Shown one piece after another: positions 17,732 through 19,638 of a stretch of DNA of 64,000 bases (the stretch's first letter is position 1; the number at the start of each line of letters is the position of its first letter). The translations under genes were made by a program, and so were the position numbers. The notes under the pieces are model-generated. The model saw only the letters and a program-made list of their open reading frames with translations. It ran no database searches and was not told where the DNA came from. This DNA is from Actinoplanes sp. NBC_00393. Lineage in GTDB: Bacteria > Actinomycetota > Actinomycetes > Mycobacteriales > Micromonosporaceae. The DNA lies in the NCBI RefSeq assembly GCF_036053395.1, contig NZ_CP107942.1, forward strand, positions 11,088,001-11,152,000, read 5' to 3'.

Positions 17732-19030
17732 CTATCGCTGGATGCGGGTGGCCGTGCCGGCCCCGACGGTGCGGCCACCCTCCCGGATCGCGAATTTCAG
17801 GCCCGGCTCGAGAGCCATCGGCTGGATCAGTTTCACCGACATCGCCGTCGAGTCGCCCGGCATGACGAGCTCGGTGCCCTCGGGCAGCGTGACGACACCG
17901 GTGACGTCCGTGGTGCGGAAGTAGAACTGGGGCCGGTAATTCTGGAAGAACGGGGTGTGCCGGCCGCCCTCCTCCTTGCTGAGGATGTAGGTGACCGCTT
18001 CGAACTCGGTGTGCAGGCTGACGGTGCCCGGCCGCACGACGACCATGCCGCGGTCGACGTCCTCCCGCTTGATGCCGCGCAGCAGCAGGCCCACGTTCTC
18101 GCCGGCGCGGGCCTCGTCGAGCAGCTTGCGGAACATCTCGATGCCGACGCAGACGGTCCGGGTGGAGTGTTCCCGGAGGCCGGCGATCTCGACCTCCTCG
18201 TTCACGGCGAGCGTGCCGCGTTCCACCCGGCCGGTGACCACGGTGCCGCGGCCGGTGATCGTGAAGACGTCCTCGATCGGCATCAGGAACGGCTCGCTGG
18301 TCATCCGCTTCGGCTCGGGGATCGCGGTGTCGACCGCGTTCATCAGCTCCAGCAGGTTGCCGGCCCACCGGGGGTCGCCGTGCAGCGCCCTGAGCGCCGA
18401 GACCCGCACCACCGGCAGATCGTCACCGGGATAGTCGTAGGTGCTCAGCAGCTCCCGGGCCTCCAGCTCGATGAGTTCCAGCAGCTCCTCGTCGTCGACC
18501 AGGTCGCACTTGTTCAGGGCGACCACGAAGTACGGCACGCCGATCTGCCGGGCCAGCAGCACCTGTTCCCTGGTCTGCGGCATCGGGCCGTCGGTGGCCG
18601 CCACGACCAGGATCGCGCCGTCCATCTGAGCAGCACCGGTGATCATGTTCTTGATGTAGTCGGCGTGGCCGGGGCAGTCCACGTGCGCGTAGTGACGGGC
18701 CGCGGTCTGGTACTCCACGTGCGCGATCGAGATCGTGATGCCGCGGGCCTTCTCCTCCGCGGCCCGGTCGATCCGGTCGAACGGGGTGTACGGGTTCAGG
18801 TCCGGGAACTCGTCGTGCAGGACCTTGGTGATGGCGGCGGTCAGCGTGGTCTTACCGTGGTCGATGTGACCGAGCGTGCCGATGTTGAGGTGCGGCTTGG
18901 TCCGCTGGAACCGGGCCACCGGGCCTTGAGCCCGCGGCTGCGGAGGTGGGGCCTGCGGTTGCGGCTGCGGCCGGGCCGCGGGCGGCACATGCATGGGCAC
19001 AGGCTCGCGGGCCTGTGCCGGCGCGGGCAT
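17732..19030 (-). CDS. tuf: Divergent elongation factor Tu with proline-rich N-terminal extension
   Basis: About 432 residues from the ATG at 19030. After an extension of about 44 residues rich in Pro/Ala/Gln comes a complete EF-Tu: G1 GHIDHGKT (about 54-61), RGITI, G3 DCPGH, G4 NKCD and G5 SAL, then domains 2 and 3 ending GAGTATRIQR. All GTPase motifs are intact, so it can be an active GTPase. Normal tuf genes lie beside fusA in the str operon and have no extension; this one stands alone behind a caspase-like remnant, so it is a paralogue. The extension repeats PAQAREPV, the same peptide that ends the caspase frame, arguing that the two were once one protein. The start is uncertain: the frame is open up to 19093, and an ATG at 18994 is possible. 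Confidence 0.85.
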   Translation of the reverse strand: MPAPAQAREPVPMHVPPAARPQPQPQAPPPQPRAQGPVARFQRTKPHLNIGTLGHIDHGKTTLTAAITKVLHDEFPDLNPYTPFDRIDRAAEEKARGITISIAHVEYQTAARHYAHVDCPGHADYIKNMITGAAQMDGAILVVAATDGPMPQTREQVLLARQIGVPYFVVALNKCDLVDDEELLELIELEARELLSTYDYPGDDLPVVRVSALRALHGDPRWAGNLLELMNAVDTAIPEPKRMTSEPFLMPIEDVFTITGRGTVVTGRVERGTLAVNEEVEIAGLREHSTRTVCVGIEMFRKLLDEARAGENVGLLLRGIKREDVDRGMVVVRPGTVSLHTEFEAVTYILSKEEGGRHTPFFQNYRPQFYFRTTDVTGVVTLPEGTELVMPGDSTAMSVKLIQPMALEPGLKFAIREGGRTVGAGTATRIQR

Positions 19031-19080
19031 GGCGCGGGCTCTCGAACCTGTGCCGGCACGGGCTCGCGGGCCTGTGCCGG
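18998..19080 (-). repeat. Three 24-bp repeats bridging the caspase and EF-Tu frames
   Basis: Copies of ccggcacaggcccgcgag followed by cc(c/t)gtg lie at 19080-19057, 19056-19033 (diverged) and 19021-18998. The first two encode PAQAREPV/PAQVREPA in the caspase frame. An 11-base spacer (19032-19022) shifts phase so that only the third encodes PAQAREPV in the EF-Tu frame. Confidence 0.8.
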
Positions 19081-19638
19081 CGCGGGCCGCCAAGCGCGAT
19101 TCGGCGCCAGGACGAGCCGGTCGATGTGCCCGGCGGAGAGCCGCTGCGGCTCGTGCAGGCCCGCGTCGCGCATCCGGCGATGGAGGGTCGCGTACAGAGT
19201 GTCGACGTCGAGGTGGGGCGGCCCGCCCGGCACTCCGTCCCGGAGCAGCTGCAACAGCCGCCCGGTGAACGCGGTGTTCCGCTCGCCCGGCAGCACCACC
19301 GAGACCTGGGTGCCCGGGGAGGCGGCCAGGGTCAGCGTGCCGGCGATGTCGATCTGGGCCCGGACGATGTCGGACTGGCTGCTGAGCGAGGCGGTCGCCC
19401 GGCCGGAGAAGCAGCAGTCCAGGACGAGAACCTTGCGGGCCGCCGGGCTCTTGCGCAGAACGCCGCGCAGGGTGTCGATGGAGATCCCGCCGAACTCCGG
19501 CATCTCCGGATCGGTCTCCGGGCCGGCCAGGTGCAGGACGTTACGGTCGTACTCCAGGCAGCCGTGGCCGGTGTAGTAGACGAACAGGACGTCCTCCGCG
19601 TCCTGCGCCGCGGCCTTGAGCAGCCCGCCGACCCGCGG
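19031..19638 (-). pseudogene. Caspase-like (C14) protease remnant, N-terminus missing, fused in origin to EF-Tu
   Basis: The frame starts directly after the MFS stop codon and has no ATG, GTG or TTG until 19503. It encodes the later two thirds of a caspase fold: LLKAAAQDAEDVLFVYYTGHG with catalytic His (codon 19564-19566), then VLVLDCCFSGRAT with the catalytic Cys (codon 19411-19413), then SPGTQVSVVLPGERNTAFTG and HLDVDTLYATLHRR. These are typical of actinobacterial caspases of conflict systems (EACC1-associated type; recollection of the family, not a search result). The first strand and helices (about 65-70 residues) are absent. Downstream the frame runs out of phase through linker repeats into EF-Tu. 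As it stands no catalytically complete product can be initiated. Confidence 0.75.

Follow-up and report, generated by a model that had tools for sequence, protein, structure and literature searches.

Structure of the locus

The window analysed here is a stretch of 64,000 nucleotides from the genome of Actinoplanes sp. NBC_00393 (contig NZ_CP107942.1), which consists of a single contig of 11.4 Mb. On the minus strand, at 11.106 Mb of the genome, the remnant of a caspase of the EACC1-associated type is followed by a linker and a complete gene for elongation factor Tu (EF-Tu), the caspase and EF-Tu being encoded in different frames (Table 1). The matches on which the two assignments rest are both far beyond chance. 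The remnant matched Pfam Peptidase_C14 (E = 2.2e-8, model positions 58-212 of 233) and the NCBIfam model NF047832, 'caspase, EACC1-associated type' (E = 1.3e-49, model positions 58-210 of 211), and its 168.5 bits pass the curated NF047832 cut-off of 140 bits. The EF-Tu frame matched TIGR00485 with an E value of 1.2e-201 (669.6 bits against an equivalog cut-off of 522.4) as well as all three Pfam EF-Tu domains (PF00009, PF03144 and PF03143). The first-pass annotation had described a caspase fold with its catalytic His and Cys directly beside a complete EF-Tu, and this is borne out, both the His (YYTGHG) and the Cys (LDCCFSG) motif being there.

Table 1. Features of the caspase/EF-Tu locus (positions in the window)
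Feature	Position	Strand	Basis or remark
MFS transporter gene, its TAG stop abutting the caspase remnant in the same frame	19639..20883	-	deletion or rearrangement junction
EACC1-associated-type caspase remnant	19087..19638	-	184 residues, catalytic His and Cys kept; NF047832, PF00656
Linker, Ala/Pro/Gln-rich, with a 24-bp repeat and the frame switch inside	18899..19086	-	repeat units and tandem array
Earliest in-frame ATG able to start EF-Tu alone	19028..19030	-	translation; by eye without a clear ribosome-binding site
EF-Tu, complete, 388 residues (KPH to end)	17735..18898	-	TIGR00485; stop codon 17732-17734

The caspase piece reads 'RVGGLLKAAAQDAEDVLFVYYTGHG...VLVLDCCFSGRA', beginning right behind the TAG of the MFS gene, and its frame (19638-18841) is open over 265 codons. 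Approximately 57 N-terminal model positions are missing at the junction with the MFS gene. Six full-length caspases aligned by tblastn only from 19620-19635 onward, and the first ATG, GTG or TTG in the caspase frame is located at 19503, past the catalytic His. When the rest of the window was searched for the lost N-terminus using tblastn, the best match was one of 22 residues (3833-3898, E = 0.004), which lies antisense to another gene and was taken as chance. Since some 57 N-terminal positions are gone and no usual start precedes the His, no working caspase would be made from the usual starts, and judged by its sequence the caspase at this locus is dead. The MFS gene looks whole or nearly so, because plasmid homologues of its protein aligned to residues 399-414 of 414 in five of the eight listed, the other three only to 356.

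Besides the MFS gene, the neighbours of the locus include what by eye is a thioesterase-like gene, and they do not form a str operon. An EACC1-like partner gene, which had been envisaged near intact homologues, was not found near the locus: a search of the whole genome for EACC1 (PF19953) gave two matches, at 1.77 and 3.65 Mb, and none at 11.1 Mb. Each of these two EACC1 genes is located beside another EACC1-type caspase. In total, five EACC1-type caspases of this genome, the remnant included, scored above the NF047832 cut-off.

Linker repeat and frame break

The repeat unit of the linker is eight residues long, A-Q-(A/V)-R-E-P-(V/A)-P, and it is encoded in part by a tandem array with a period of 24 (19031-19087). 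In the caspase frame it is read as AQAREPVP (19077-19054) and AQVREPAP (19053-19030), and in the EF-Tu frame there is one further copy, AQAREPVP (19018-18995), the last step not being a multiple of three. As two copies of the repeat belong to the caspase frame and one to the EF-Tu frame, caspase, linker and EF-Tu were probably one chain that was broken later, and the simplest reading of this sequence is a single former reading frame of all three. The 'proline-rich N-terminal extension' that the first-pass annotation had assigned to EF-Tu does exist as sequence, but it is really the former linker; likewise, the caspase does adjoin EF-Tu, as had been claimed, but the two are not in one frame now, and the caspase has lost the N-terminal part described above.

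The EF-Tu copy

The window EF-Tu was aligned with the product of the genome's own tuf1 over 388 of 388 residues, with no gaps and 86.1% identity. The GTPase motifs G1-G5 are intact, including the RGITI region that had been reported as kept. In a comparison with 15 free EF-Tu sequences (the B. subtilis reference was dropped by the motif filter), 171 of the 180 invariant columns were kept in the window EF-Tu and nine were changed.

There are three EF-Tu genes in the genome: tuf1 at 9.126 Mb, a divergent copy (64%) at 5.435 Mb, and the copy at the locus, which lies away from any str operon, as first proposed. Another, weak GTPase match 1.8 kb before tuf1 is presumably fusA. When 40 genomes of the genus (own included) were searched at the DNA level, with 10 candidates scored per genome, tuf1 was found in all 40. 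A third tuf1-like copy was not found in any of the 39 other sampled genomes and was seen only in the own genome. The outcome that was initially named as speaking against the link, an ordinary tuf gene with varying neighbours, was not observed. In addition to tuf1, 36 of the 40 genomes have a further, divergent tuf (71-75% DNA identity).

A DNA tree was computed from 34 tuf sequences, the Nonomuraea reference having been omitted since it failed the motif filter; in it, the window EF-Tu fell inside the tuf1 set of the genus, in a group of 13 that contained its own tuf1 (94/97, just under the level starred by the tree program). Its end branch was 0.39 long, against a median of 0.012. The protein tree described below placed it beside four tuf1 copies of the genus, with support of 99/96 for the five and 92/91 for the four without the window copy. 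From these trees we conclude that the window EF-Tu stems from the tuf1 lineage of the genus, and because of its very long branch nothing narrower than this origin was concluded.

Among the 30 tuf1 copies compared, none of the 435 pairs falls below 95.9% identity, and the window EF-Tu is 84.8-86.6% identical to these copies. Against its own tuf1 it gave a dN/dS of 0.092/0.344 = 0.27, compared with 0.08 (median) and at most 0.14 for own tuf1 versus the 29 others. Nevertheless, only 54 amino-acid changes were seen where 111.2 ± 4.5 were expected under neutrality with the same base spectrum, and a stop codon arose in 753 of 1000 neutral simulations; these figures indicate that the window EF-Tu has been fast-evolving yet constrained for most of its life. 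Recent decay could be part of the dN/dS of 0.27.

Relatives of the caspase

Matches to the caspase at 1e-20 or better occurred in 98 of the 200 genomes searched within the family, the own genome among them. Within 1.5 kb on each side of 29 fetched loci from other family genomes, no EF-Tu was found beside the caspase relatives, and the two nearest relatives (51%) are by eye PAS-like fusions. A GTDB scan with the caspase gave 26 loci, none with EF-Tu. When the caspase half of P0272, one of the database fusions described below, was used as the query, 18 of 296 class genomes matched, and none of 12 loci (one of them from the own genome) contained EF-Tu. A protein search with the caspase part gave 100 proteins, none with EF-Tu among the Pfam domains listed, where a few of the longer domain lists are shortened. 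Among these 100 proteins, eight were joined to core host proteins by source name or Pfam accession: Rho (P0140, P0149), L7/L12 (P0156), S1 (P0165), NuoF (P0151), Rieske (P0189, P0193) and IF2_N (P0157), where some of the family names are those that we take to belong to the accessions. Since caspases of this type occur in fusion with a wide range of unrelated domains, EF-Tu is one of numerous partners. By eye, one EACC1-type caspase (L130) carries a DnaJ-like Cys-rich and C-terminal part.

EF-Tu fusions in the databases

A joined caspase and EF-Tu query was of little use, as slightly long EF-Tu entries swamped the list and no caspase domain occurred among the 120 matches listed. The EF-Tu part was searched among long proteins with a long query, and the best 120 of 2396 matches were sorted by eye into 52 EF-Tu/EF-G chains, nine IF2_N/EF-Tu chains, 26 proteins that carry some other additional Pfam domain and 33 that show no domains beyond those of the EF-Tu type. 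The 52 EF-Tu/EF-G chains were read by eye as operon read-through or chimeras, and the nine IF2_N/EF-Tu chains as chimeras with the crossover at or near the P-loop; neither set was accepted as genuine fusions. Within the 26 extra-domain proteins from these best 120 matches, six were from named eukaryotes and ten carried an immune-type or hydrolase domain, which Pfam scans confirmed in all ten cases. These are caspase–EF-Tu (P0272, P0286), CHAT–EF-Tu (P0228, P0240), TIR–EF-Tu (P0315), DUF900 hydrolase–EF-Tu (P0256, P0280, P0283, P0331) and dynamin/DO-GTPase–EF-Tu (P0284) proteins, with the partner domains of the immune-type fusions found at either end of EF-Tu.

The search for intact single-chain caspase–EF-Tu proteins that had been recommended for this locus yielded, among the matches listed, two of the EACC1 type, P0272 (172.3 bits) and P0286 (142.3 bits, NF047832 cut-off 140), in which a whole EF-Tu follows the caspase. 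Descent of the locus from a caspase::EF-Tu fusion, as originally proposed, is well supported by these two proteins together with the repeat found in both frames and the domain list of Kaur et al. (2020). P0272 and P0286 each have a single member sequence, in both cases with 'jgi' as the source, compared with six for P0228, three for P0315, and two each for P0280 and P0331; P0284 is encoded on a 3.67-Mb contig. Active-site motifs are there in the caspase and CHAT domains of the fusions. Nine fusions were given to PADLOC, and its defence-protein models matched the effector part of four (P0272, P0286, P0240 and P0315), with no match in P0228, P0256, P0298, P0284 and P0280. CHAT relatives of P0240 were found in eight of 396 genomes, at 10 loci without EF-Tu.

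By BLAST, EF-Tu reaches residue 386 or 388 of 388 in nine of the ten immune-type fusions. In the tenth, P0256, it extends to residue 373 by BLAST, and the EF-Tu profile covers almost the whole domain. In the non-immune, bacterial-looking fusions EF-Tu ended at 381 or earlier in five of seven examined, as may happen in assembly chimeras. Several fused EF-Tu domains have altered residues: P0331 has lost GTPase motifs; G83 (E. coli numbering, set by us) is E, A or S in P0272, P0240 and P0230; RGITI has become RDIDI, REITI, GGVAI or GGITI in P0240, P0230, P0256 and P0286; and H66, E215 or N273, which we take to line the aminoacyl pocket, is changed in several, P0272 included. None of these changes at G83, RGITI, H66, E215 or N273 occurs in the window EF-Tu. 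The altered switch residues and the lost motifs of P0331 would also fit an altered effector or scaffold.

Some further proteins were seen in the course of this search. In P0256, P0285, P0297, P0298 and P0329 the N-terminal region before EF-Tu looks alike by eye ('RVEPELLRALRLELLP...AEADLWFSP'); Pfam scans of P0256, P0285 and P0298 gave nothing for it at 0.01. P0231 has a CHAT-like end by eye that is not in Pfam. Like P0228, in which EF-Tu is followed by a CHAT protease end, it has EF-Tu first, and the EF-Tu domains of the two are sisters (100/98). On a plasmid of Streptomyces sp. NBC_01471 (NZ_CP109451.1, L086 3146-5170), a tuf gene encoding a protein with 88.8% identity to EF-Tu of E. coli is located 66 bp behind a C1 peptidase gene. 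This pair was not accepted as a protease–EF-Tu cassette since the peptidase looks secreted by eye; neither other plasmids nor, at 1e-20, a set of 396 genomes yielded a relative of the peptidase, an empty result that shows little.

Phylogeny of fused EF-Tu domains

A protein tree was built from 37 EF-Tu domains, 20 fused and 17 free. The EF-Tu/EF-G and IF2_N/EF-Tu chains, tandem EF-Tu and named eukaryotes were left out, as were proteins in which EF-Tu ends early (P0088, P0251, P0318, P0319, P0323, P0327, P0307 and P0317) and P0232, P0236, P0262, P0290, P0294 and further chains whose extensions were unnamed or unlikely. The label 'fused' requires 12 changes on this tree, at least five of which are forced by well supported branches. 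As shuffled labels require a mean of 12.5 changes, the fused copies are scattered rather than clustered. None of 200 bootstrap trees (0%) united the fused EF-Tu, and the possibility, raised in the first-pass annotation, that caspase-linked copies form one clade was thus abandoned; on this tree, EF-Tu was fused several times.

In the tree, the fused copies are neighboured by free EF-Tu from various groups or phyla. The EF-Tu of the TIR fusion P0315 groups with Bacteroides (also 82% by tblastn), that of P0286 with the DUF900 and dynamin fusions and Sinorhizobium, and those of P0272 and P0240 are placed among actinobacteria. Two pairs of sister EF-Tu domains have different partners: the caspase fusion P0272 with the CHAT fusion P0240 (97/91), where the rather long branches (0.30 and 0.32) mean that the pairing could be an artefact, and the DUF900 fusion P0283 with the dynamin fusion P0284 (100/98).

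Comparison with known systems

In the main text of Kaur et al. (2020, eLife, PMC7159879), EF-Tu is named among the domains fused to EACC1-type caspases, and the variable C-terminal domains are viewed as effectors freed by autoproteolysis. The words 'elongation factor' occur once in that main text, and decoys are mentioned elsewhere in it, for inactive enzymes. The locus resembles the EACC1 two-gene system described there in having an EACC1-type caspase that probably once carried, in one chain, a variable C-terminal domain of a kind that is named. It differs from that system in its truncated caspase, its broken frame and the lack of a nearby EACC1 gene. In the literature searched on EF-Tu as a decoy or sensor and on its association with CHAT, TIR, EACC1 or caspase domains, this paper was the only one to point to the fusion. 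The earlier statement that no characterised example was known holds for function, within that literature, but not for the architecture, which had already been listed. The kind of protein represented here is known though little studied, and the locus holds a dead example of it. More notable is that EF-Tu has been joined to immune effectors repeatedly, a pattern not found in the literature searched.

A second point of comparison is the Lit/Gol/EF-Tu exclusion of E. coli, in which, according to PMC3014915, the Gol part of the T4 capsid protein binds domains II and III of EF-Tu and so triggers cleavage by Lit; Gol prefers the GDP form of EF-Tu (PMC3014915 and PMC9712102). Common to both would be a protease and EF-Tu in a cell-suicide pathway, in which for Lit a phage capsid peptide binding EF-Tu is the trigger. 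As described in PMC3014915, however, Lit is a HEXXH zinc protease that cleaves EF-Tu itself after activation by Gol, whereas the locus has a cysteine protease joined to a dedicated EF-Tu. By both Pfam and NCBIfam, the protease at the locus is a caspase and not a zinc protease of the Lit type.

In plant immune receptors with integrated decoys, a copy of a host target is grafted onto the receptor as bait. The locus would resemble these in its putative bait, a grafted copy of a host target, and differs from them in being bacterial; no STAND NTPase or repeats were seen.

Proposed function and alternatives

The locus is best read as a decayed single-chain EACC1-type caspase–EF-Tu conflict protein, in which EF-Tu served as bait or sensor and the caspase as executioner; we place the probability of this at roughly 0.6. 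The bait role, its trigger and its outcome are what we infer as most likely. The intact ancestor would have consisted of a caspase, a proline-rich linker and an EF-Tu domain from the tuf1 lineage of the genus. An invader protein that bound or modified EF-Tu, or a disturbed EF-Tu/tRNA state, would change the EF-Tu domain, the changed domain would switch on the caspase, and the active caspase would cleave itself or cell proteins, whereupon the cell would stop. By analogy with Lit, Gol-like binding to an EF-Tu graft on a caspase, CHAT or TIR domain could activate the attached effector. A bait role is preferred because EF-Tu is joined to domains that act as effectors by themselves, because the partners occur at either end of it, and because related EF-Tu domains carry different effectors. 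The system at this locus no longer works, and EF-Tu alone, if anything, might still be made.

It is possible, if somewhat unlikely, that EF-Tu was instead a cargo or targeting part and that the caspase or EACC1 did the sensing, in line with the 'effector' view of Kaur et al. (2020), in whose main text autoproteolysis frees the variable C-terminal domains. EF-Tu would then bring the protease to ribosomes or tRNA, or self-cleavage would free EF-Tu to disturb translation, and the occurrence of translation and RNA domains (L7/L12, S1, IF2_N and Rho) on related caspases is consistent with this. Against it, EF-Tu is fused at either end to accepted effectors such as TIR, CHAT and caspase domains, and the two sister pairs keep EF-Tu and differ in the effector.

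We consider it unlikely that the frame break is a sequencing error and that a single open frame still runs from the caspase remnant through EF-Tu, even though the break is located in a G/C-rich tandem repeat of a single-contig assembly and the EF-Tu half is under constraint. The missing N-terminus of the caspase is a defect of its own that leaves no usual start before the His, and the caspase is therefore dead whether the break is real or an error.

A surplus or specialised elongation factor, such as an antibiotic-tolerant one, with the caspase fragment as irrelevant debris, would account for a whole EF-Tu with all its GTPase motifs, nearly all broadly invariant columns and an in-frame ATG at 19030. 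We regard this as very unlikely, since its N-terminal extension is a repeat common to the caspase frame, its end branch is more than an order of magnitude above the median of the tuf tree and none of the 39 other sampled genomes of the genus has the copy. That a duplicate of tuf1 inserted ectopically, and by coincidence, behind a caspase fragment unrelated to it, as the differing frames, the PAS-like (by eye) or other partners of the closest caspases and the uniqueness of the copy in the genus sample might suggest, is hardly credible given the repeat array that crosses the frame change and the same architecture in P0272, P0286 and Kaur et al. (2020).

Returning to EF-Tu as bait, we tentatively suggest, at somewhat less than even odds, that it is a recurrent bait domain of bacterial immunity: different lineages would repeatedly have attached their own kind of EF-Tu to caspase, CHAT, TIR, hydrolase or dynamin effectors, so that an invader seizing EF-Tu sets off the weapon. 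If so, bacteria use duplicates of an abundant core protein to watch for invaders, much as plants use integrated decoys, and the recurrence of a housekeeping factor in suicide-type proteins would be explained. The intact fusions P0272, P0286, P0240, P0228 and P0315 make this idea directly testable. The caspases with Rho, L7/L12, S1, NuoF, Rieske and DnaJ-like parts may extend it to other core host proteins.
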